A stretch of 64,000 bases of DNA from Sarcina sp. DSM 11001. GTDB taxonomy: Bacteria; Bacillota; Clostridia; Lachnospirales; Lachnospiraceae. Each line of letters begins with the position of its first letter. The first letter of the stretch is position 1. The notes under the pieces are model-generated. The model was given only the letters and a program-made list of their open reading frames with translations, made no database searches and was not told the DNA's origin. The DNA is taken from NCBI RefSeq assembly GCF_900101015.1, contig NZ_FNFZ01000007.1, positions 1-64,000 of the forward strand. The letters are read 5' to 3'. Position numbers and translations under genes: made by a program. Below, in pieces: positions 1,629-34,202 of this stretch.

Positions 1629-1709
1629 TTGACAAACTTCATATTTGACGCTATATTTTTGTTTTATGAGCAAAGGCGTGCAGGAGTTCGTCTCCTCACG
1701 TCTTTTTTT
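1629..1709 (+). promoter_or_regulatory. Promoter followed at once by an intrinsic terminator: attenuator-like leader
   Basis: TTGACA (1629-1634), a 17-bp spacer and TATATT (1652-1657) form a near-consensus sigma-A promoter. Only about ten bases after the expected start point is a hairpin, GGCGTG-c-AGGAG / CTCCT-CACGTC (1675-1702) with an UUCG-type loop, followed by seven T. RNA starting here would terminate after about 45 nt unless read-through is allowed, giving either a tiny RNA or conditional expression of the symporter gene that begins at 1783. I see no known riboswitch aptamer or T-box. Confidence 0.6.
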
Positions 1710-1782
1710 CGTTTATTTCCGGGCTGCTCTGCAGCCGGATCAGCGATTTGGAACTGTTGTTTGAAGTCTCAGGGAGGAAAGT

Positions 1783-3318
1783 ATGTCAGGGTTTCTAATG
1801 ACACAAAGCATGATCGTGCCGATCACTACGGTTGAAAAGATCACTGCTGTAAATGATTCGGTGAACGGGTTTGTATGGGGGCTGCCCATGCTGATCCTGC
1901 TTGTCGGAACAGGTATTCTCATGACCTGTCTGACAAAGTTTTTCCAGATCACCCATATCAGGCACTGGTTTTCAAAGACGATCGGCGCGGTTTTTACTGA
2001 CAAGCATGTCACAGCACACACGGCGAAGGACGACAAGTCCATCAGCCAGTTTCAGAGTCTTTGCACCGCCCTTGCGGCCACGATCGGCACGGGCAATATC
2101 GCCGGCGTCGCGGCGGCTATCGTCTCGGGCGGCCCGGGAGCTATCTTCTGGATGTGGATCGTGTCCTTCTTTGGCATGATGACCAATTTCTCTGAAAATG
2201 TGCTGGGTATCTATTACCGCCGTAAAAACGAAGTCGGAGAGTGGTGCGGAGGCGCCATGTACTATCTTCACGACGGTCTGGGCTCCAAAAAGGGCTGCAA
2301 GGGGATCGGTGCAGTGCTCGCAGTCCTGTTCAGCGCCTTCTGTGTGCTTGCCTCTTTTGGCATCGGCAACATGAGCCAGGTCAACACCATCGGAGCAAAC
2401 CTGCAGCAGGTTTTCGGGATTCCGGTATATATCTCCGGTATCCTCCTGATGATCCTGGCGGCCCTGGTCATCATCGGCGGCCTAAAGCGCATCGCAGCGG
2501 TCACGGAGAAGCTCGTGCCCTTTATGGCGATCGCCTATATCATCGGTTCTCTGATCGTGCTCTTTGCCAATATCGGCCAGCTGGGTGCTGTTTTTGCCTC
2601 CATTATCCGCGGAGCCTTCGCGATGAAGGCAGTCGGCGGCGGCATCACAGGCTACGGTGTCCGACTTGCTGTGACATGGGGTATGAAGCGCGGCGTCTTC
2701 TCCAATGAGGCTGGTCTCGGTTCCTCTGTCATGGTCCACTCCGCTTCCAATATCCGTGAGCCCGTCATGCAGGGCATGTGGGGCATTTTTGAAGTCTTTG
2801 CCGACACCATCATCGTCTGCTCTCTGACCGCCTTCACGATCCTCTCGAGCGGGGTGGTGGATCTCAATACCGGCGAAATGATCTCCGATTCCGCCAGCAC
2901 GGCGCTGGTTGCTGAGTCCTTTTCCACAGTCTTTGGCAACGTCGGAAGGGGATTTATCGCATTAGCGATCCTGCTCTTTGCCTTCTCGACTGTGCTGGGC
3001 TGGAGCCAGTACGGCATGCGTGGCTTTGAGTATCTCTTCGGAACAAAGGCGACCATTATCTACAGAGTCATTTTTGTAGCCTTCATTTTTGTCGGCTGTA
3101 CCATGAACCTGCAGCTTGCCTGGGACCTTTCCGACACCTTCAACGGCCTCATGGCCATCCCCAACCTGATCGGCGTTCTCGCCTGCTCCGGCACTGTCGT
3201 CGCGGTCACAAAGAACTACGTGGACCGCGTCCTGCGCAAAAAGCAGATCGAGCCCATGTACTCCGCCCTCGACCATGTCCAGGAAATGCATAAGCAGGAG
3301 ATCAGGAACGGGAAATAA
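1783..3318 (+). CDS. Sodium:alanine/glycine symporter (AGCS family)
   Basis: A 511-residue polytopic membrane protein that would import alanine or glycine with Na+. The family signature is clear in the third hydrophobic segment: ALAATIGTGNIAGVAAAI, followed by GGPGAIFWMW, and later GVFSNEAGLGSSVMVHSA, both typical of AGCS transporters. Length is at the upper end for the family (about 450-520). The start at 1783 follows CAGGGAGGAAAGT. It stands alone as a transcription unit with its own promoter and a terminator hairpin in the leader (1629-1709), so expression may be attenuated. A 15-bp degenerate repeat follows the stop. Confidence 0.93.
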   Translation: MSGFLMTQSMIVPITTVEKITAVNDSVNGFVWGLPMLILLVGTGILMTCLTKFFQITHIRHWFSKTIGAVFTDKHVTAHTAKDDKSISQFQSLCTALAATIGTGNIAGVAAAIVSGGPGAIFWMWIVSFFGMMTNFSENVLGIYYRRKNEVGEWCGGAMYYLHDGLGSKKGCKGIGAVLAVLFSAFCVLASFGIGNMSQVNTIGANLQQVFGIPVYISGILLMILAALVIIGGLKRIAAVTEKLVPFMAIAYIIGSLIVLFANIGQLGAVFASIIRGAFAMKAVGGGITGYGVRLAVTWGMKRGVFSNEAGLGSSVMVHSASNIREPVMQGMWGIFEVFADTIIVCSLTAFTILSSGVVDLNTGEMISDSASTALVAESFSTVFGNVGRGFIALAILLFAFSTVLGWSQYGMRGFEYLFGTKATIIYRVIFVAFIFVGCTMNLQLAWDLSDTFNGLMAIPNLIGVLACSGTVVAVTKNYVDRVLRKKQIEPMYSALDHVQEMHKQEIRNGK

Positions 3319-18926: not shown

Positions 18927-18958
18927 ATCTATTGTCCGTTGCGAACACAGCGGGAAAT

Positions 18959-19031
18959 GCGATAGTAGTACAGTTGGTAGTACGCCACCTTGCCAAGGTG
19001 GAGGTCGCGAGTTCGAGCCTCGTCTATCGCT
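18959..19031 (+). tRNA. tRNA-Gly (anticodon GCC), copy 1
   Basis: A complete 73-nt cloverleaf: acceptor GCGATAG/CTATCGC, D arm GTAC/GTAC, anticodon stem CCACC/GGTGG with loop TTGCCAA (anticodon GCC), T arm GCGAG-TTCGAGC-CTCGT. CCA is not encoded. Confidence 0.97.
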
Positions 19032-19069
19032 CTCGGGAAGCGGATTTAGTCCCGGCAATTTCATTCTTT

Positions 19070-19142
19070 GCGATAGTAGTACAGTTGGTAGTACGCCACC
19101 TTGCCAAGGTGGAGGTCGCGAGTTCGAGCCTCGTCTATCGCT
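19070..19142 (+). tRNA. tRNA-Gly (anticodon GCC), copy 2
   Basis: Identical in all 73 positions to copy 1, 38 bp downstream, with the same missing CCA. Both are probably made from one transcript that ends at the hairpin just after this copy. Confidence 0.97.
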
Positions 19143-19151
19143 CTTTCTTAT

Positions 19152-19181
19152 GGCGGACACCTTCGGATGTCCGCCATTTTT
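19152..19181 (+). terminator. Intrinsic terminator of the tRNA-Gly operon
   Basis: GGCGGACACC-TTCG-GATGTCCGCC followed by ATTTTT, starting 10 bp after the second tRNA. Confidence 0.9.
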
Positions 19182-19182
19182 G

Positions 19183-19318
19183 TGTATCGACGCGCTCTTT
19201 TATAAACTTTGTATCGACGCGCTTTTTTGTAAATTTTGTATCGACACATTCTTTTGCAGACTTTGCATCGACACACTCTTTTTTGAACTTTGTATCCACA
19301 CACTCTTTTTCGGACTTT
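19183..19318. repeat. 27-bp tandem repeat, five copies
   Basis: TGTATCGACGCGCTCTTTT plus eight bases (aTAAACTT-like) repeats with an exact 27-bp period, drifting toward TGCATCGACACACTC. The period is divisible by three, so an open frame runs through it into the TraX gene, but that frame also runs through both tRNAs and is not a real N-terminus. Confidence 0.88.
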
Positions 19319-19354
19319 TATTCTTTTTCTTTTTTGTCCATGAGGTATTCCGAA

Positions 19355-20158
19355 ATGGAACTTCTTCTAAAACGCCTGGACCGGATGAGAATATACCTTC
19401 CTCCCATCAACGAAGGAAGGCTCAAAATGCTCGCCGTCTTCACCATGTTGATCGATCATGTGACCTACTCATTTCTGGAGAAGGCCTACGATGCCAACGG
19501 GCAGCTTCTGTCATTTTCCTTAGAGAACGGCAGAATGCTGGACCACATTGGAAGAATGATCGGACGTCAGGCCTTTCCCATTTTCTGCTTTTTCCTTGTG
19601 GTGGGTTTTCGAAAGACGCACAGCAGGGCCGGCTACCTTGCGCGGCTTCTGATCTTTTCAGCCCTGTCCCAGTTTCCTTTCCAGAAATGTATTTTTCCGG
19701 GCACGGATGTCTTCCATGCCAGTGTCATGGTCACTTTGACTCTGGGGATGCTGCTCATCTGGGTGATCGATTCAGCGGACAAGGCCTTTCTGCCCCATGA
19801 GGAAGACCGGTCCCGGGATAATCCTTTCGGGATCCTGATTTTCCTCGCGGTCTCAGCCGGAGCTGTCTTCGGCTTCTGCAGGCTGGCGGTCTTTCTGCAC
19901 AGTGACTACAGCTACGGCGGTGTCATCCTGATCCTGCTGATGTATCTGCTGAGGAAATACAGAATTCTTTCGTTGTTCATTTCATGGATGTGGCTGTCGT
20001 GGTATAATCGGTTTGAGATGTACGCCGCGCCTGCTTTTTTCCTCCTCGCCTGCTATAACGGGAAGCGGGGAAGGCAGAACAAGTATTTTTATTATGTTTT
20101 TTATCCGGCACATCTGCTGTTGATCTGGCTTGTGCGCAGACACTTTTTCGGAATGTAA
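19355..20158 (+). CDS. TraX-family membrane protein
   Basis: About 267 residues with eight or so hydrophobic segments. The N-terminal LKMLAVFTMLIDHVTY followed by IGRQAFPIFCFFLVVGF is typical of TraX, first known as the F-pilin acetylase; chromosomal clostridial members have unknown acyl-transfer roles. The start is placed at 19355 (GAGG nine bases upstream); ATG 19340 is also possible. It starts shortly after the 27-bp repeat, and no operon partner overlaps it. Confidence 0.82.
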   Translation: MELLLKRLDRMRIYLPPINEGRLKMLAVFTMLIDHVTYSFLEKAYDANGQLLSFSLENGRMLDHIGRMIGRQAFPIFCFFLVVGFRKTHSRAGYLARLLIFSALSQFPFQKCIFPGTDVFHASVMVTLTLGMLLIWVIDSADKAFLPHEEDRSRDNPFGILIFLAVSAGAVFGFCRLAVFLHSDYSYGGVILILLMYLLRKYRILSLFISWMWLSWYNRFEMYAAPAFFLLACYNGKRGRQNKYFYYVFYPAHLLLIWLVRRHFFGM

Positions 20159-24398: not shown

Positions 24399-26561
24399 AT
24401 GGCAGTAGAGAGAGGACCATTATCCATTAACAGCGAAAATATGTTTCCGATCATCAAAAAGTGGCTGTATTCGGATCATGATATCTTTTACAGGGAGCTG
24501 ATTTCCAACGGTTGTGATGCCATCACGAAGCTCAAGAAGCTGGATATGATGGGGGACTATGAACTTCCTGAAGGCTATAAGGCCCGCATCGATATCGAAG
24601 TGGACCCCAGGGAAAAGACGATCAAAGTCACTGACAACGGCCTGGGTATGACTGCGGAGGAGGTCAAGGAATATATTAACAATATCGCTTTCTCCGGCGC
24701 CGAGGCATTTCTGGAAAAATACAAGGACAAGGCGACGGACGACCAGATCATCGGTCATTTCGGCCTGGGCTTCTACAGCTCCTTTATGGTGGCGGAGCTG
24801 GTCGAGATCGATACCCTGTCCTGGCAGGACGGAGCTGAGCCGGTGCACTGGGAGTGCGACGGCGGCAGCACCTATGCGATGGGCGGCGGGGACAAAAAGG
24901 AGATCGGCACGACAGTCACTCTGCACCTGTCCGAGGACTGCGTGGAGTTTTCCAATTATTACCGCGCGCAGGAAGTCATTGAGAAATACTGCTCCTTTAT
25001 GCCCGTGGAGATCTATCTGTCCGAGCACGATACCAAGATGACCGAGACCATCAAAGAGTCCGAGCGCAGGCCTGAGGATGTGGTCATCGAGGTGATCGAG
25101 CCGGAGAAAAAGGCCGAGCCCGCAAAGAAGGAGGGCGAAGAGGCTGTACAGACAGAGCCTGAGGAGAAGCGCCTCAAGATCCGCCGCCGCCCGGTCCAGA
25201 TCAATGACCCTCATCCGCTCTGGGCCAAGACCCCTTCGGACTGCACGGAAGAAGAGTATAAAGAGTTTTACCGCAAGGTCTTCCACGATTACAGGGAGCC
25301 CCTGTTCTGGATCCACCTCAACATGGATTATCCCTTCAACCTCAAGGGCATCCTCTACTTCCCCCGCCTGAACCTGGAGTACGAGTCCGCCGAGGGCGTC
25401 ATCAAGCTCTACAACAGCCAGGTCTTCATCGCGGACAACATCAAGGAGGTCATTCCTGAATTCCTGATGCTGCTCAAGGGCGTGATCGACTGCCCCGACC
25501 TGCCGCTGAACGTCTCCAGGAGCGCTCTGCAGAACGACGGCTTCGCACAGAAGATCAGCGATTATATCTCCAGAAAGGTCGCGGAGAAGCTGGGCGGCAT
25601 GTGCAAGACCGACAAGGAAAATTACGACAAATACTGGGACGACATCAGCCCCTTCGTCAAGTACGGCTGCCTGAGGGACGACAAGTTCTGTGAAAAGATG
25701 ACGGACTATATCCTCTTCAAGGATCTGGACGGCAAATACCACACCCTGCCCGAGGCGCTGGAGATCAACGCGAAGGATACCGGCGATGAAGCCTCTGAGA
25801 CCGCTCAGGACGAAGAAGGAAAGGCCGTTGAGGCCGAGGTGGTCTCCGACGGAGACATTGCCGATGCCGCCTCCGGTTCAGAAGGTGCCGGGGACAAGGA
25901 AGAAGAGGAAGAGGAGCCGAAGGACCGCACGATCTACTACGTGACCGATCCCGAACACCAGAGCCAGTATGTCCGCATGTTCCGTGATAACGGCATGCAG
26001 GCCTTCGTCCTGGAGCACACCATCGACCAGCCCTTCATCGCCCAGCTCGAAGCAAAGAACGAGGGCATCCATTTTACCAGGATCGACGCGGACATCCAGG
26101 ATGCGCTCCGCGCGGATACAGAAGCCGAAAAAGATGAAGAAAAGGCCAAAGAGGACGGAGAGAAGATCACAAAGATCGTACAGAAGGCTCTGGAGGATGA
26201 CAAGCTCACTGTGAAGCTGGAGACCCTCAAGGATCCCGCTGTCTCCTCCATGCTCATCGTGGACGAGCAGACACGCCGCATGAACGACATGATGAAGATG
26301 TATGCCGCCAGCGGCATGGGTTCTGAAATGGGCTTCGGCATCGGCGGTATTGGAAGAGAAGGCCGCACCCTGGTCCTCAACGCGGCGCACCCCCTGGTCA
26401 AGTATGTCCTGTCCCATGAAGAGGGTGACAACACAAAGATGATCTGCGAACAGCTCTATGACCTCGCCCTCCTGCAGAATGAACCTCTCACCGGCGACGG
26501 GATGACCAGGTTTGTTGCCCGCTCCAACGAGATCCTCATGCTTCTGACAAAAGAGCAGTAA
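24399..26561 (+). CDS. htpG: Molecular chaperone HtpG (Hsp90)
   Basis: 720 residues against the usual 620-640. The GHKL ATPase motifs are clear: FYRELISNGCDAITKL, VTDNGLGMTAEE and IGHFGLGFYSSFMVAE. The extra length comes from two charged insertions: residues about 233-264 (Lys/Glu, at the N-to-middle domain hinge, as in eukaryotic Hsp90) and about 460-509 (Glu-rich, in the middle domain). Ribosome binding site AAGGAGGAATTTTAAA. Regulation by HrcA is expected from the perfect CIRCE upstream. Single-gene unit. Confidence 0.95.
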   Translation: MAVERGPLSINSENMFPIIKKWLYSDHDIFYRELISNGCDAITKLKKLDMMGDYELPEGYKARIDIEVDPREKTIKVTDNGLGMTAEEVKEYINNIAFSGAEAFLEKYKDKATDDQIIGHFGLGFYSSFMVAELVEIDTLSWQDGAEPVHWECDGGSTYAMGGGDKKEIGTTVTLHLSEDCVEFSNYYRAQEVIEKYCSFMPVEIYLSEHDTKMTETIKESERRPEDVVIEVIEPEKKAEPAKKEGEEAVQTEPEEKRLKIRRRPVQINDPHPLWAKTPSDCTEEEYKEFYRKVFHDYREPLFWIHLNMDYPFNLKGILYFPRLNLEYESAEGVIKLYNSQVFIADNIKEVIPEFLMLLKGVIDCPDLPLNVSRSALQNDGFAQKISDYISRKVAEKLGGMCKTDKENYDKYWDDISPFVKYGCLRDDKFCEKMTDYILFKDLDGKYHTLPEALEINAKDTGDEASETAQDEEGKAVEAEVVSDGDIADAASGSEGAGDKEEEEEEPKDRTIYYVTDPEHQSQYVRMFRDNGMQAFVLEHTIDQPFIAQLEAKNEGIHFTRIDADIQDALRADTEAEKDEEKAKEDGEKITKIVQKALEDDKLTVKLETLKDPAVSSMLIVDEQTRRMNDMMKMYAASGMGSEMGFGIGGIGREGRTLVLNAAHPLVKYVLSHEEGDNTKMICEQLYDLALLQNEPLTGDGMTRFVARSNEILMLLTKEQ

Positions 26562-27210: not shown

Positions 27211-27290
27211 GTTACAGTATATTCAGACCCTCTCGAAATTTGAAATAACAGGCGTTTTTGCGCGGCTTACAGCGCAAAAACGCCTGTGGA
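27211..27290 (+). repeat. Palindromic repeat family, copy A
   Basis: Begins GTTACAGTATATTCAGACC, continues CTCGAAATTTGA and ends in a perfect 15-bp stem-loop (27249-27286). Matches the framework of copies at 63247-63320 and 36329-36401. Confidence 0.65.
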
Positions 27291-27872: not shown

Positions 27873-30800
27873 ATGAGAGATTTTTACACAAAAGAAAACA
27901 TGCAGGGCGAGGCTTTTCATGTACCGGATGCCGGGCTGGCCTTTGAGCCTTCGGAGCTGGCCTTTGAGATGGAAACCGGAACCGGCCGGGAAGGGGTGAT
28001 CCGCGTGAGGCACAAGGCGGGAAAACCCTCCCGGGGATATGTATATTCTTCCGGACCCTGCATGCGGGCTATGCGTGAGCAGTTTGCCCCCGGAGCGGAC
28101 GGAACCGGCTTTATACGCTGGCAGTTTGATGCCAGGGGGATCGCGCCGGGCAGGACTGTCCGCGGTTTCTTTCGTGTGATTTCTCCTTTCGGCGAATACA
28201 GGATCCCCTATTGCGCGGAGATTTCCGGAAAGGGAGAACTGCTGCGCAAAAAGGAACCCGGGATCTGGGACAAAGACATTCCGGAAAAAGACCCGGCCCG
28301 CCTGGAAATATTATCAAAGGAGCAGTTTGCGGCCCTTGCCGGGAAGGATCCGATGAAGGCTGCAGGCTTTTTTTACAGCGGCAGGTTTGAGAATATCCTG
28401 ACAACGGAGGAGGACAGGACGCTGTACAGAGGCCTCTCCATGAAGGAGGGGAATCTGCAGAATATGGAAGAATTCCTCATCGCCGCCTGCGGGATGGAAA
28501 AGACAATTTACGAACCCGCAGTGGAAACCCTGGTCCTGCAGGTGCAGGGCAGGGCCGGCAGGACGGAAGGACGCATGGCCGGGACCCGGGCGGAGCGGGC
28601 GCTGGAAGCCCACCGGCAGAGAGTGCGCAGCAGTGGACTGGGCGGGGCGCCTGCGCAGCGCAAAGCCCCCGCGCAGGAGGACCTGGTCTACATGAATCTC
28701 GGGATCAGAAAGATCGGATCGGGATTCTCTGAACTGCAGATCAGGGCTGAGGGGAGGTTTCTTCCCACAGCTCCTTTCAGCGTGCCCCAGACAGGGAAAA
28801 AACCTGTGCAGGAGAGCAGTGCCGATACAGGTATTCCGGCAGAAAAGAAATCCAGTGCAGAGGATGTGTCCATCGCGCCTGTCCGTGAGGCAGAACCTTC
28901 GAAGGAACAGACCGGGCTTTCTGCGAGTCAGCCGGGATCTTTTGCAGGGCAGGCAGGATCTGCTGCAGGACAGGCCGGAACTTCCGTGAGTCAGGAGAGG
29001 CCTTCCGCGAGTCAGGAGAGGCCTTCCGCGAGTCAGGCAGGGCCTTTTGCGGGGCAGGCGGTATCTGCTGCCGAGACGGTTTTTACCGTCAGGATCCCTG
29101 TCAACCGCGCCGCGCTGCACGCAGGGAGAAATTTCGGGAGGATCCTGCTCAGAGGTCCCTTCAATGATGCCGAGGTCCCTGTTGAAGTGCACTGCAGTTC
29201 AAATGTCTCCCCCGTGAGACGTCGTCAGGAGAGTGAGCTCAGGCTTCTCCAGCTGCAGCTGATGCGCCTGTATACGGATTACCGCCTTGAACAGCAGTAT
29301 CCCGGGGACAGGGGGCAGCACCCTGAAGACAGGCTTCTGCAGGCGGAAAAGCTGATCGAGGAGATCTCGATCCGCAGCCACAAGGATCTGGTGCCGCGTC
29401 TTTTCGTCGTCCACCTGCTGATCCTGAGAAAGCAGTATACAGAAGCAGCCCGGGTGCTCACCAGGATCGCCGCCAGATATGCGGGCCAGGATGACGCGCA
29501 GAATTTTTCCGCCCGTTTTACAGGAGAAAAAGAGGGAGCCTACTGTTACCGGCAGTATCTGTTTGCCCGCTGCCATATGGACGATGTACAGCTCCGCTCC
29601 CGGGTCGTCCGTTTCCTGCACGGAGTATACCGGCAGAACGGGGACTGGCGGATCGCCTGGATGCTGATGGACCTGTCCGAAGAGTATGCCCCCGGGACCA
29701 GTGCGCGGTGGAATTTCCTCCGGCACCAGTTTGAGAGCGGCTGTTCCAGCCCGGTGATCTGGATCGAAGCGTGGGAGATGGTGCGCCAAAACCCCCAGAT
29801 CCTGCTGCCCGGCAGCAGTGTCCAGGAGCGCTGGGCCAGGGACGATTTCGGCCTCCACGTACTCTGGTACGCGGCGCGAAATTATGTCCTGACCCCGGAA
29901 GCTGCCGAGGTGATGATCACTCTCGCGGAAAAAAAGAAGATCTTTTCCAAGCTCCTGTACAGGGGGCTCTGTGCGGCTTATGAGATCTGGGACAGCGGGG
30001 AGGATACTGAGGATTCTCCGGATTCCGGGACCCGGGAGGAAAGTCCCGCAGCCGGGCCGGAATCCGGCAGCCTGATCAGGACCCGGATCCTGCGCGCGAT
30101 CTGTATCCTTCTGGTGCGCAGGCAGGACATTTCCGCGCAGGCCCACAAATGGTATACCAGAGCGATTGAAAACAACGTGAGCCTGACCACGCTGGAAGAG
30201 AGCTGGCGCCAGAGCGTGCCGGCTGATGATGCGGTTTATCGGATGCCTGCCGGCAGAAACGCTGTATTAAGGACAACGGCTTCCCGCGCCGTCAGGGCTG
30301 TACTTGTCTATGACCGGTTCCGCGGCGAGCAGGTCTTTCCCATCAAGGACGGAGTGGCTTTTCTCCCTGTCTATGGGGACGCGAATACTGTTTTCCTGGA
30401 AGACGCAGCGGGAAACCGCTGCGCAAAGAGCCTGCCCTATGCGCTGGATGTGAAAGAGGACATGGAATCAGCGCTGCAGGATAACGGACAGGACATAACC
30501 CTGCTTTCTGCCCCGTCAGGACCGGCAAAACTGACGGAGAATCCTTACGCTCTTGCGCAATGGGTGGGATTTGGCAGCCGCTCCGGGATCCGTCTCAGGT
30601 ACGGTCAGGAGACAATGGAGGCTGCAGGACGTCTTCTGGACAGCGGCCTGCTCACTTTCGCGGCGCATACAAAGCTCATCCTGCTGTGCCTGGAGCGATG
30701 CGGCAGGCAGAGCGGGGATGCAGGAGAACTGGTTCGTTTCTTCCTTTCCAGGGTACAGCCTATGCGCTGCAGTGAATCGGAGAGGGAGAGGCTCCTCGGG

Positions 30801-31862
30801 TATCTTCTGGATGCCGGGGAAAATGAGGAGGCTGTGCGCTGGCTCGGAGCATTCGGGCCTGACAAGATCAGTTCCGGCCTTCTTGCCAGGGCCTGCACGG
30901 GAGTACTCTGGGAAGGAAACGTGCAGGATGTTGTGGTCTCCTCCGCCTGGGAGGCTTTTGTGCGGGGAAACAGGGACAGTGTCCTGCTCGAAAGGCTGGC
31001 GGCGGAATTTACAGGTCTTTCGGAGGAACTCCTGGATCTGAGGAGGGCGTGTACGGAAGCCGGTCTCCCCACCAACGATCTGGAGCAGAGGATCATACGG
31101 CAGATCCTTTACAGCGGCAGCTCGGGACCTGGCGCCGCTCAGGTGATCGTCAGCGCCGCCGGGAGGCTGGGAGACGTCTTTCTGCCTGCTGTCGCCCAGT
31201 ATGCGGACTACGCTTTTTCCAACGGCCTCTCCCTGGGTGTCCGCATGACGGATCTCATCGCCGGACTTCTGCTGGAGGAAGGGGACAGACCGGCGGATAT
31301 CTGCCGGATCGCCTACCTGAAGGAGCTGTCCATGCGGCATGAAGAGATCACAGAGAGAGAGAAGGCAGCTGCGCAGGCATCGCTGGCGGCCCTTCTTTCC
31401 AGAGAGATCATCTTCCCTTTTTACAGGCAGTTCCCGGGATATGACGACAGGCTGGATCTCTATGCCGAGGAGACCCTTGTCCAGTATCATCCCGCTTCTC
31501 CGGACGACGGCAGGGGCAGACACATCGTCTTTCATTACGCGGCATCCCGCAGAGGAGAGGCGGGGAACTACCGCGCCCGCCCCATGAAGGAAATGTACAG
31601 AGACTTTTTTGTCTCCGGATTCGTGCTTTTTTACGGAGAGCAGATGCATTATTATATTACAGATGATGCTGCTGAGAAAAATGTGGTCCAGAGCGGGACG
31701 GTCGGGCAGGACGCCCGGATTCCGGAAAGCTGTTCCGGCCGGTTCGGCCTGATCAATGATACGACGCGGGCAGCGGCGCTGCGGGAGTACGATGAAGCGC
31801 TGGAGCTCCTGACGGGATATTACCGGAGGAGTTATCTGGAGAGTGAACTGTTCCGGAGATAA
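27873..31862 (+). CDS. Giant DUF5717-type cytosolic protein (two beta domains plus long helical body)
   Basis: About 1,329 residues, no signal peptide, no membrane segment. I associate it with the uncharacterised DUF5717 family of Lachnospiraceae (from memory). Residues about 17-125 look like an Ig-like beta domain (LAFEPSELAFEME, GVIRVRHKAGKPSRGYVY, VRGFFRVISPFGEYRIPY). A Gly/Ser/Gln-rich disordered linker (about 310-400) holds SASQERP and AGQAGS repeats. A second beta strand set follows (VFTVRIPVNRAALHAGRNFG), then 800 residues of TPR-like helices with one beta island (FPIKDGVAFLPVYGDANTVFL), and a C-terminal sheet (RHIVFHYAASRRGEAGNYRA). Start uncertain: ATG 27873 or GTG 27870 after GGAAAGGGG. 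First gene of a three-gene unit. Confidence 0.7.
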   Translation: MRDFYTKENMQGEAFHVPDAGLAFEPSELAFEMETGTGREGVIRVRHKAGKPSRGYVYSSGPCMRAMREQFAPGADGTGFIRWQFDARGIAPGRTVRGFFRVISPFGEYRIPYCAEISGKGELLRKKEPGIWDKDIPEKDPARLEILSKEQFAALAGKDPMKAAGFFYSGRFENILTTEEDRTLYRGLSMKEGNLQNMEEFLIAACGMEKTIYEPAVETLVLQVQGRAGRTEGRMAGTRAERALEAHRQRVRSSGLGGAPAQRKAPAQEDLVYMNLGIRKIGSGFSELQIRAEGRFLPTAPFSVPQTGKKPVQESSADTGIPAEKKSSAEDVSIAPVREAEPSKEQTGLSASQPGSFAGQAGSAAGQAGTSVSQERPSASQERPSASQAGPFAGQAVSAAETVFTVRIPVNRAALHAGRNFGRILLRGPFNDAEVPVEVHCSSNVSPVRRRQESELRLLQLQLMRLYTDYRLEQQYPGDRGQHPEDRLLQAEKLIEEISIRSHKDLVPRLFVVHLLILRKQYTEAARVLTRIAARYAGQDDAQNFSARFTGEKEGAYCYRQYLFARCHMDDVQLRSRVVRFLHGVYRQNGDWRIAWMLMDLSEEYAPGTSARWNFLRHQFESGCSSPVIWIEAWEMVRQNPQILLPGSSVQERWARDDFGLHVLWYAARNYVLTPEAAEVMITLAEKKKIFSKLLYRGLCAAYEIWDSGEDTEDSPDSGTREESPAAGPESGSLIRTRILRAICILLVRRQDISAQAHKWYTRAIENNVSLTTLEESWRQSVPADDAVYRMPAGRNAVLRTTASRAVRAVLVYDRFRGEQVFPIKDGVAFLPVYGDANTVFLEDAAGNRCAKSLPYALDVKEDMESALQDNGQDITLLSAPSGPAKLTENPYALAQWVGFGSRSGIRLRYGQETMEAAGRLLDSGLLTFAAHTKLILLCLERCGRQSGDAGELVRFFLSRVQPMRCSESERERLLGYLLDAGENEEAVRWLGAFGPDKISSGLLARACTGVLWEGNVQDVVVSSAWEAFVRGNRDSVLLERLAAEFTGLSEELLDLRRACTEAGLPTNDLEQRIIRQILYSGSSGPGAAQVIVSAAGRLGDVFLPAVAQYADYAFSNGLSLGVRMTDLIAGLLLEEGDRPADICRIAYLKELSMRHEEITEREKAAAQASLAALLSREIIFPFYRQFPGYDDRLDLYAEETLVQYHPASPDDGRGRHIVFHYAASRRGEAGNYRARPMKEMYRDFFVSGFVLFYGEQMHYYITDDAAEKNVVQSGTVGQDARIPESCSGRFGLINDTTRAAALREYDEALELLTGYYRRSYLESELFRR

Positions 31863-31890
31863 CACTCTGTCCGTGGAACAGATCACCAGA

Positions 31891-31912
31891 GGGGGGCTCA
31901 TAAGAGGCCCCC
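31891..31912. other. Intercistronic hairpin in the DUF5717-DUF5716 gap
   Basis: GGGGGCTC-ATAA-GAG-GCCCCC with one mismatch, between the two genes, ending about 20 bp before the second start. No T-run. It could set the ratio of the two products by RNA processing. Confidence 0.5.
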
Positions 31913-31930
31913 GGAACAGGATGACATCAT

Positions 31931-33244
31931 ATGATTATTTCGAAATCGCCTGCAGGCAAATACATGCTGGGGATCGACCTCACGGATGAATATTGCCAGA
32001 TTTCTTATCTTTATAATAAAAAAGCCCGTTTCGGGCGCGGTTTTGTAAACGCGGCTACGGGAGGGGTGTCGCGTGAACCTGTCACTTATTCCACAGCAGC
32101 GGGACAGGAGGCCTACAATATACCGACAGCCCTCTGCAGGCTGAAGGATTCATCGGTGTGGCTCGCCGGCTATGATGCCCTGGAAGCAGACCAGGCCGGA
32201 GAGGGAACTGCGGTAAAAGACCTTTTGAAAAAAGCCCGTAAGGACGCCAATATCCTTCTGGAGGGAGAGGAATACAGCGCGGGGGCTCTGCTGGCCCTGT
32301 ATCTCCGCAGATGCCTTGCCCTGCTGGAACCGGAGATCACACCTGACCTGATCGCTGCCGTCGCTTTCACAGCCCCCGATATGGATTATGAGCTTGAGCA
32401 GATCCTTGTACGCGCCTTCAGCCGCCTCGACCTGGGGCTGCAGAAGGTCATCTGCGAAAGCCACGAGGAATCTTTTTACAGCTACATGCTCATGCAGGAT
32501 GCGGAGCAGCGCAGGACAGGGATGCTCCTGTGTGAATACGGCGCGGACGGCGCTGTTTCTTTTTCCACTCTCCTGTACAACCGCAGGACAAACCCTGTGG
32601 TCTACTGGACCCAGAGGCAGGACCGCAGGATCGATCCGGGTCTCCAGAAGGTCGGAAAGGACAGGGAGTTCACTCTGGCTGTTCAGGAGGTCCTCCAGCA
32701 GAACGAGGCGTCCGCCGTCTATCTGACAGGCGAGGGCTTCGAAGGAGGATGGCTGAGGGAAGGAGCAGTCTGCCTGTGCAGGGGACGCCGGGTATTTCAG
32801 GGTGAAAACCTGTTCAGCAAAGGGGCGGCCTACAGCGCCCTGCTGCATGTGGACAGGCCCTCCGAGATCCAGGACAGTGTCTTTCTCGCCGGGGATGCTC
32901 TCCGTTCAAATATCGGCATCGAGGTTGTGCTCCGCGAACAGCTGGGGTATCATGTCCTTCTGGATGCCGGCGTGAAGTGGTATAATGCGGAAGTGGAAGA
33001 GGACTTTATCCTTGAAAACGGCAAGGAGTTCAGCCTGCTCAGAACCCCCGTGACGGGAGGCGAAGCGCAGGAGCTGACTGTCCATCTGGACGGGATCCCG
33101 GACAGACCGGACAGAACGACCCGCCTGCGCGTGGTCCTGACCATGCCGGCTGCCGGCCGGCTCAGAGTCCAGATCACGGACCTGGGTTTCGGGGATATTT
33201 TTCCCACAGGAGGGGGCGTCTGGGAAGAGACCTTCGAAGTATAA
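31931..33244 (+). CDS. DUF5716-type Hsp70/actin-fold ATPase
   Basis: 437 residues. The nucleotide-binding motifs of the Hsp70/actin superfamily can be read: phosphate-1 at about 12-22 (YMLGIDLTDEYCQISYL), the connect-1-like HEESFYSYML, phosphate-2 as GMLLCEYGADGAVSFS, an adenosine-like AVYLTGEGFEGGWL, and KGAAYSALLH, typical of the connect-2 helix. A C-terminal beta segment (VTGGEAQELTVHLDGIP...VQITDLGFGDIFP) resembles an Hsp70 substrate domain in length only. No membrane segment. I link it to DUF5716 (memory). It sits 68 bp after the giant protein gene and is probably its ATPase partner. Confidence 0.72.
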   Translation: MIISKSPAGKYMLGIDLTDEYCQISYLYNKKARFGRGFVNAATGGVSREPVTYSTAAGQEAYNIPTALCRLKDSSVWLAGYDALEADQAGEGTAVKDLLKKARKDANILLEGEEYSAGALLALYLRRCLALLEPEITPDLIAAVAFTAPDMDYELEQILVRAFSRLDLGLQKVICESHEESFYSYMLMQDAEQRRTGMLLCEYGADGAVSFSTLLYNRRTNPVVYWTQRQDRRIDPGLQKVGKDREFTLAVQEVLQQNEASAVYLTGEGFEGGWLREGAVCLCRGRRVFQGENLFSKGAAYSALLHVDRPSEIQDSVFLAGDALRSNIGIEVVLREQLGYHVLLDAGVKWYNAEVEEDFILENGKEFSLLRTPVTGGEAQELTVHLDGIPDRPDRTTRLRVVLTMPAAGRLRVQITDLGFGDIFPTGGGVWEETFEV

Positions 33245-33249
33245 TACGA

Positions 33250-33345
33250 TGGTAAAAGCAGTGTGAGAGGCATTGTGAAAAACAGTGTGAGAAGCATAGT
33301 GGAAGCAATGTAAAAAAGGGTGTAGAAAACAGATAAAAAACTGCT
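33250..33345. repeat. Degenerate 15-18 bp repeat
   Basis: CAGTGTGAGAGGCATTGTGAA-like units (shortened here to their core CAGTGTGAGAAGCAT) recur five times in the gap between the ATPase and TPR genes. Confidence 0.65.
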
Positions 33346-33362
33346 TACAGGAGTCTTTGTTT

Positions 33363-34202
33363 ATGGGAAGAATCTTGACAGTGGCGGGAAAGCTCGCCGA
33401 TACGCCTTACAGAATACGGAAGATCGAGCGCAGCGTGTATTCCGCGGAAGAACTGTGCTATTCCCTTGCGCAGTGCGCGGATTTTATGGACGCGGAGATC
33501 ATGGATCCGGCTCTGGCGGACTGGCTGTCCGAGTCCTGCGGTCTCCACGAACTGGCCCGGCTTCTGCGCGGACAGCTGAGAGCCCACCGCACGCCAAAGG
33601 AATTTGTCGGGACGATCCTGCGCGAGTGCGCCTGCCTTCCTCCCGGTGAGAACGCAAAAGTCCTCTCGAGGATGGAAGCGGGCGGCGGAATGGAGTCCAT
33701 CAATAAAGAACTTGCCAGAGCGCAGGCTCTGGCCGCCAAAGGGCACATGCGGAAAGCGCAGAACACCTATACAGAGCTGCTGGACAGGCTCCCGGATATG
33801 GAGCGCGGCACCAGGGCCCAGATCTGGAAGGAAAAAGGACTTCATTACGCGGACAGTTTCCTGTTTGAGCGGGCTGCAGACTGTTTCGGCAGGGCCTGGG
33901 AGCTTTCCCCGATGCCGGAGCATGCGTTCTGGTATGTAGCCTCTTTGTATATGTATATGGACGGGAACGAATACCGGAAGTTCCTGGAGCAGAATCCACA
34001 GTTCTACGAGAGCGCTTATCAGGTGGAACAGCGCGCCGCCAAGGCGGAGAGCCGTTACAAGTCCGGCAGCGAGAGCCGTCAGCTCCGCAGGCTCCGCCAG
34101 CTGAAAAGGGAAAAGCAGGATGAGGCCTTCTCCTCCAGGCTGGGGCACACCCTCAAGGGGATGCAGGAAGACTACAGGGCGAGAGTGACCGCATCGGTCT
34201 GA
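33363..34202 (+). CDS. TPR-domain protein, third member of the module
   Basis: 279 residues, cytosolic. The centre (about 115-200) carries tetratricopeptide repeats (ARAQALAAKGHMRKAQNTYTELLDRLP broken here as ARAQALAAKGHMRKAQ / NTYTELLDRLP; FERAADCFGRAWELSP; EHAFWYVASLYMYM). The N-terminal 100 residues are helical; the C-terminus is basic and coiled. TPR proteins commonly dock to Hsp70/Hsp90 tails, in keeping with an ATPase gene just upstream. ATG 33363 follows CAGGAG; a TTG two codons earlier is too close to the site. Confidence 0.7.
   Translation: MGRILTVAGKLADTPYRIRKIERSVYSAEELCYSLAQCADFMDAEIMDPALADWLSESCGLHELARLLRGQLRAHRTPKEFVGTILRECACLPPGENAKVLSRMEAGGGMESINKELARAQALAAKGHMRKAQNTYTELLDRLPDMERGTRAQIWKEKGLHYADSFLFERAADCFGRAWELSPMPEHAFWYVASLYMYMDGNEYRKFLEQNPQFYESAYQVEQRAAKAESRYKSGSESRQLRRLRQLKREKQDEAFSSRLGHTLKGMQEDYRARVTASV

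Follow-up and report, generated by a model that had tools for sequence, protein, structure and literature searches.

The DNA considered here comprises positions 1 to 64,000 of contig NZ_FNFZ01000007.1 of Sarcina sp. DSM 11001, and this whole stretch of 64,000 nucleotides is termed the window. It carries a module of three genes, which encode a giant DUF5717 protein, a DUF5716 protein and a tetratricopeptide repeat (TPR) protein (Table 1). An earlier description made from the letters alone (the sequence-only reading) took the module for a cytosolic chaperone or filament machine built around an Hsp70/actin-fold ATPase. The coordinates of the open reading frames (ORFs) agree with that description: the genes lie on the same strand, with gaps of 68 bp between DUF5717 and DUF5716 and 118 bp between DUF5716 and the TPR gene. 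Likewise, no transmembrane (TM) segment or signal peptide was found in the three proteins by hydropathy, which was used in place of a dedicated predictor; the maximal 19-residue Kyte-Doolittle means are 1.41, 1.39 and 0.54 for the DUF5717, DUF5716 and TPR proteins, respectively. None of the three contains an HPD string.

Table 1. Module genes and DUF5716 features in window coordinates (aa, amino acids; NBD, nucleotide-binding domain; SBDbeta, beta part of the substrate-binding domain; A1, alignment of 29 Lachnospiraceae DUF5716 proteins)
Feature	Position	Strand	Description
DUF5717 protein	27873..31862	+	1329 aa from ATG at 27873; Pfam DUF5717_N and DUF5717
DUF5716 protein	31931..33244	+	437 aa; lid-less, catalytically degenerate Hsp70-like (NBD and SBDbeta); Pfam DUF5716_C
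Phosphate-1 relic	31970..31999	+	GIDLTDEYCQ, aa 14-23; G and D kept; DnaK GTTN replaced by TDEY
Phosphate-2 relic	32534..32563	+	EYGADGAVSF, aa 202-211; Asp194-equivalent is Glu; DnaK GGGT replaced by GADG (MAFFT register)
Adenosine-motif region	32723..32740	+	LTGEGF, aa 265-270; G267 and F270 invariant throughout A1 (29 rows)
Connect-2-like region	32807..32830	+	NLFSKGAA, aa 293-300; L294, G298 and A299 invariant throughout A1 (29 rows)
SBDbeta-like domain	32906..33241	+	about aa 326-437, boundary from model; C-terminal end is the end of DnaK SBDbeta; no lid
TPR protein	33363..34202	+	279 aa from ATG; conserved N-terminal stretch, then TPRs

The three genes and their conservation in Lachnospiraceae

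The first gene matches Pfam DUF5717_N at 1.4e-102 and DUF5717 at 2.7e-52, and its open frame starts further upstream, at TTG 27825. The encoded chain consists of an N-terminal part (Ig-like by reading), a linker rich in Ser, Ala, Gln and Gly, and a long body. The linker (aa 225-391, window 28545-29045) has three insertions relative to the L110 protein, with partly repeated SASQERP/GQAG low complexity, in keeping with the disorder that had been read there. The Ig-like parts proposed for this chain are indicated weakly, by one sub-threshold BACON match (E 0.0025) among 15 homologues of the N part. Profile search of the Protein Data Bank (PDB) with DUF5717 gave nothing convincing, and with the N part one weak match, 8p0a_C (0.0079). 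DUF5717 is one chain in Lachnospiraceae and also in some other families; of 20 loci outside Lachnospiraceae, 15 encode its N part and its body as two genes. The second gene matches DUF5716_C at 3.3e-83. The TPR matches of the third are all sub-threshold (best TPR_2, E 0.0033); its homologue in L206, from another family and the sole one scanned, matches TPR_2 far over the cut-off (2.2e-21), and for this reason the TPR reading of the third gene is right.

Co-occurrence of the genes across Lachnospiraceae had been set beforehand as a test. By strong matches, 117 of 120 Lachnospiraceae genomes carry DUF5716, 116 carry DUF5717 and 116 the TPR gene, so that the TPR partner and the large companion are indeed kept with the Hsp70-fold protein. 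All three are missing by strong match from G029, G091 and G098, and G020 (67% complete) retains DUF5716 only; a weak TPR match elsewhere in the G029 genome was left out of the count, in which it would be the 117th. Each genome that carries DUF5716 has a single match. DUF5717 shares a contig with DUF5716 in 113 of 116 genomes (exceptions G009, G039 and G055), and the TPR gene does so in 115 of 116 (exception G084).

Locus architecture was examined in 80 named loci, which were fetched with DUF5716, and hence its presence there is by selection; the later DUF5717 model was built from them. The genome counts are independent of these loci, except for the fourth-gene profile A4 (see below), made from nine of them. 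DUF5717 and TPR genes are found in 79 of the 80, the exception (L032) lying at a contig end; the TPR tally is a six-frame count, as ORF-picking undercounts TPR genes in high-GC loci. Gaps between successive genes are mostly short and many genes overlap, and in L036 DUF5716 is split over two frames. The nearest named relatives of the window are seven loci (six Lachnospiraceae, one Eubacteriales) with 70-79% identical DUF5716. Four genomes (L118-L121) encode DUF5716 and the TPR protein as one fused ORF of 684-723 aa; these natural fusions are independent evidence that the two proteins act together. A mobile or viral origin was considered and dropped, as tblastn found no relative of DUF5716 or Hsp70c (introduced below) in viral contigs, the DUF5716 query being a single protein that reaches close relatives only.

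A fourth gene extends the module in 57 of the 80 loci and 52 of the 120 genomes, and starts between 89 bases upstream and 55 bases downstream of where the TPR gene ends (56 loci measured). Its product of ~390 aa has a strongly hydrophobic stretch near residues 170-230 and is read, from hydropathy and by eye, as a pair of TM helices flanked by charged arms of coiled-coil-like character. It belongs to no Pfam family, with DUF2207_C, SLATT_4 and others all under cut-off, and matches the PADLOC Cas1 model weakly (0.0065). In 20 neighbourhoods that lack it (L112-L131), hydropathy and inspection by eye found no two-TM coiled-coil-like ORF directly after the TPR gene that could substitute for it. The description of a three-gene cytosolic module is therefore apt for the window, yet much of the family departs from it.

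DUF5716, a degenerate member of the Hsp70 fold

The Hsp70/actin-type fold proposed for the middle gene is borne out by profile search, an AlphaFold (AF2) model and fold searches. The model, with a predicted local distance difference test (pLDDT) of 91, matches DnaK over NBD and SBDbeta, and together with the fold searches it describes a two-lobed actin-type NBD followed by SBDbeta. The helical lid (SBDalpha) is not present, the chain stopping at the end of SBDbeta. Hsp70-type entries make up 49 and 48 of the best 50 matches listed in the two fold searches, the remainder being ciliary central-pair entries; filament actins of the ParM, MreB or FtsA type do not occur among the best 50 listed in each. 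One chain from another family of the order matches both Pfam families, DUF5716 and HSP70, and FastTree groups DUF5716, the DUF5716-like proteins of other families and Hsp70b with a support of 1.0. As judged from sequence comparison and the model, DUF5716 is a descendant of the Hsp70 family, nearest to the Hsp70b encoded beside its counterpart in other families.

The phosphate motifs that had been read in this protein are present and deviate from those of DnaK, as degenerate relics. Alignment-free patterns recover intact phosphate-1 and phosphate-2 motifs in 6/6 DnaK, 21/21 Hsp70a, 20/20 Hsp70b and 18/18 Hsp70c proteins, and in none of 19 DUF5716-like proteins of other families or of 29 and 50 Lachnospiraceae DUF5716 proteins (overlapping sets). 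The catalytic Lys and Thr (K70 and T199) are retained in 0/48 proteins of the MAFFT alignment, that is, the 29 of A1 and the 19 of other families. This speaks against the claim of an ATPase: DUF5716 lacks residues needed for ATP hydrolysis and is probably no ATPase. The further invariant residues of A1 are G347, W350, D417, G419 and G421 in SBDbeta, G14 in phosphate-1, and C283. Since most invariant residues fall in the adenosine loop, connect-2 and SBDbeta, the pattern suggests that shape and interfaces are under constraint rather than catalysis.

The larger Hsp70 operon and the direction of change

Looking for HSP70 genes in 12 relatives drew attention to G373 and G374, genomes of the same order, in whose neighbourhoods DUF5717 is split in two genes and accompanied by Hsp70a, Hsp70b, Hsp70c and TPR genes. 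G373 additionally has a GrpE-domain protein, DUF5716 and a coiled-coil gene, with Hsp70c and TPR each as two ORFs; in G374 the genes are spread over two contigs, and no GrpE or DUF5716 gene was seen there. The DUF5717 profile matches 62 of 116 genomes of the order, 11 from Lachnospiraceae and 51 of the 105 from other families, and so the module is not restricted to Lachnospiraceae as the sequence-only reading supposed. In the class, 17 of 391 genomes match, 16 from the family and G266, whose match (2e-4 over 47 columns) was taken as chance.

Twenty neighbourhoods of other families, several of the same genus, were labelled by models from G373, G374, DnaK and Lachnospiraceae sequences. The complete order DUF5717 - Hsp70a - GrpE - DUF5716-like - Hsp70b - Hsp70c - TPR is found in 16 of them, giving a larger operon of 7-9 genes with three Hsp70s that carry intact motifs; 13 of these 16 hold no further ORF of at least 70 aa. 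Among the incomplete ones, the L208 contig ends ~1.8 kb past Hsp70a, with an unlabelled ORF there, L211 and L220 are cut by the stretch taken, and L223 has DUF5717 alone, its Hsp70c lying on another contig. The coiled-coil gene follows the operon in L206, L207 and L224. We also note extra ORFs within the Hsp70 operon of L210, L211, L218, L219 and L220, some lipoprotein-like and some small.

By domain assignment, a GrpE-type exchange factor is present in the larger operon (PF01025 over cut-off in 5/5 scanned; PDB match 4ani_A, 2.3e-6), with exchange activity as a prediction. Hsp70c has a VWA domain (2/2 scanned), in which DTTGSMD is invariant in 14/14 proteins; we take this string to be the metal-ion-dependent adhesion site (MIDAS) motif. 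A crude test for an HPD string was negative in 20 DUF5717C, 18 DUF5717N, 18 GrpE-type, 16 TPR and three coiled-coil proteins, the inserted genes of the five loci with extra ORFs lying outside the test.

Hsp70c with VWA (E 1e-100 or better) occurs in 49 of the 116 order genomes, all among the 51 DUF5717-positive genomes from other families, of which only G518 (80% complete) and G526 lack it. It is found in none of the 54 DUF5717-negative genomes of the order, none of the 11 Lachnospiraceae of that sample and none of the 120 Lachnospiraceae genomes; the same query and cut-off, with 49 matches in the order sample, served as positive control for the last search. Five Hsp70c matches among 388 genomes of the phylum (337-346 bits; open frames of 618-625 aa) were rejected as ordinary DnaK by length and score. 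At the level of loci, in the window and 100 loci of Lachnospiraceae, the only protein matched by models of Hsp70a, Hsp70b, Hsp70c, GrpE and DnaK is DUF5716. Separately, L142 (G367, same genus) encodes at 1672-3258 on the minus strand a second DnaK-like Hsp70 of 528 aa, beside a DnaJ-like-looking ORF; it scores best with DnaK and not with Hsp70a-c.

A quick IQ-TREE analysis places Lachnospiraceae DUF5716 in one group (99), whose sister is the protein of the large G373 operon (99), and the other DUF5716-like proteins outside that group. Taking the active Hsp70s as the root, we read the large operon as ancestral and the Lachnospiraceae form as reduced. With this rooting, the degeneration of DUF5716 appears to have come before the loss of the active Hsp70s.

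Several observations concern the surroundings of the module. The window contains htpG (Hsp90) upstream, at 24399-26561; htpG is co-directional and upstream in 34 of 68 loci (window included; loci with at least 4 kb upstream) at varying distance, and possibly shares a chaperone neighbourhood with the module, which we regard as a lead only. A perfect inverted repeat with 16-nt arms and an 8-nt loop (27248-27287), upstream of DUF5717, is perhaps the terminator of the gene upstream. A DnaJ-like ORF adjoins dnaK in this genome. Two tRNA-Gly(gcc) genes lie in tandem at 18959-19143, and the start of the listed ORF 18932-20158 is tRNA sequence.

A proposed reduced chaperone operon and its alternatives

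The module is best explained, with fair though limited confidence, as a reduced Lachnospiraceae form of the Hsp70 chaperone operon of the order. The SBDbeta of DUF5716 and the GrpE-domain neighbours in the operons of relatives indicate chaperone ancestry, and of the two functions offered by the sequence-only reading the chaperone is the one supported, with no support for the filament among the fold matches listed.

A number of points weigh against this reading. Pfam HSP70 is matched by 0/50 Lachnospiraceae DUF5716 proteins even at E 1, nor is it matched by the DUF5716 of G373; the hhalign probability for DUF5716 is only 47%, and E-values against PDB sequences are weak (best 1e-3). The E171 column is ambiguous: MAFFT gives 0/29 Glu, with His in the window protein, and in the hhalign register the position is Glu176 of the window protein, in a column with Glu in 2/29 (window included) and Gln in 18/29. 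D8 is retained in 25/29, with Glu in the other four, and DUF5716 may therefore still bind nucleotide. The absence of Hsp70a, Hsp70b and GrpE from Lachnospiraceae is seen at the level of loci, the genome-wide search having been made for Hsp70c only. The quick IQ-TREE carries SH-aLRT (approximate likelihood ratio test) support alone, with 12 rows flagged for composition, the G373 and window proteins included, and loss rather than gain elsewhere depends on the rooting on active Hsp70s. Finally, the fourth gene was not found in this genome by profile search.

Among the alternatives, DUF5716 could be an Hsp110/Sse1-like helper of the cell's DnaK, acting as a nucleotide-exchange or positioning factor to which the TPR and DUF5717 proteins bring clients. 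We regard this as unlikely, since DUF5716 has no SBDalpha, which Sse uses with its NBD for partner contact, and has lost both phosphate motifs, whereas Sse and Ssz1 bind ATP according to the accessible part of PMC8476630; moreover, the larger operons already include a GrpE-domain protein.

A role in conflict or defence, on the model of the GAP1-N2 GTPase systems, is less probable still. The HSP70/GrpE theme of those systems is the closest gene neighbourhood in the literature seen. As far as the accessible text of PMC7159879 goes, that theme, known mainly from actinobacteria and firmicutes, brings GrpE into one neighbourhood with HSP70 genes and with a beta-sandwich (FNIII) protein that is fused either to DnaJ or to TPRs, and a subset has a second HSP70 without the peptide-binding domain. 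The likeness extends to weak PADLOC matches of the larger-operon relatives, in which Hsp70a, b and c match PDC-M61B (best 5.5e-9) and the L206 TPR protein matches PDC-M71B (2e-9) and TPR. However, the three proteins of the window have no PADLOC match at E 0.01, and tblastn found no relative in viral contigs. Inside the 13 of 16 complete operons that lack a further unlabelled ORF of at least 70 aa there is no room for a GTPase or GAP1 gene, a statement that covers the ORFs within these operons and not the flanking genes or those inserted in other loci. Near-universal presence in one family is also unlike a patchy defence system and disfavours such a role. In contrast to the GAP1-N2 systems, three Hsp70s occur here together with a degenerate one and with DUF5717, in one order only in the samples searched.

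A filament-forming or cytoskeletal system, which the actin-superfamily fold would permit, is very improbable in view of the Hsp70-dominated best 50 matches listed in each fold search, the SBDbeta of DUF5716, and the GrpE-domain protein and intact-motif Hsp70s that adjoin its relatives.

The reduced chaperone operon can be compared with other described systems. The larger operon resembles the canonical DnaK-GrpE-DnaJ set in its Hsp70a-c with both phosphate motifs (59/59) and in its GrpE-domain neighbour. It differs in the negative HPD test of those non-Hsp70 proteins of the operon that were tested, and in the VWA of Hsp70c and the presence of DUF5717, while the Lachnospiraceae loci have no Hsp70a-c, GrpE or DnaK match. 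MxDnaK2 of Myxococcus is likewise an additional Hsp70 that shares an operon with a homologue of GrpE, but this operon has two genes; a scaffold, TPR protein or pseudo-Hsp70 is not mentioned for it in the accessible part of PMC11019930. Ssz1 of the yeast ribosome-associated complex is an atypical Hsp70 (PMC8476630, as far as accessible) whose likeness to DUF5716 is one of shape and not of demonstrated descent: Ssz1 works with a J-protein on the ribosome and binds ATP, whereas DUF5716 has lost the phosphate motifs and has a TPR protein as fusion partner.

Lachnospiraceae keep DUF5717, DUF5716 and the TPR protein, with the membrane protein in part of the family, and in the proposed mechanism the first three would form one stable complex. 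Through its SBDbeta, DUF5716 may bind peptide or another protein as partner with no cycle of ATP involved, in the manner of Ssz1; DUF5717 would be the scaffold, the TPR protein an adaptor that might reach the DnaK of the cell itself, and the coiled-coil protein, in genomes that have it, would tether the complex to the membrane. Tentatively, and with somewhat less confidence than we place in the reduced operon itself, we envisage a near-universal Lachnospiraceae machine, derived from a multi-Hsp70 operon, that has lost its exchange factor and the Hsp70s driven by ATP and now relies on a pseudo-Hsp70; it would be a scaffold that binds clients independently of ATP and that, in some members of the family, is anchored in the membrane.

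No published account of the families, the module or the larger operon was found in the open-access literature, a coverage that excludes preprints and most subscription papers; there, DUF5716 is named only in an unrelated context and DUF5717 nowhere, in accord with the view that the module is unlike described systems. The system is order-wide, Hsp70-derived and, as far as searched, undescribed in print. Three Pfam entries of unknown role, present in ~97% of the sampled genomes of a dominant gut family, can now be given an ancestry and a mechanism open to test. The larger operon is an Hsp70 assembly of three Hsp70s with intact motifs (one with VWA), a degenerate Hsp70, a GrpE-domain protein, a giant companion and sometimes a membrane protein. 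If the proposal is true, the Lachnospiraceae module would be a chaperone counterpart of a pseudokinase complex. The two forms provide a natural series, from a set of chaperones driven by ATP to one whose motors seem to have been lost and whose dead paralogue has been conserved, and this series may inform on what Hsp70-shaped proteins do without ATP.

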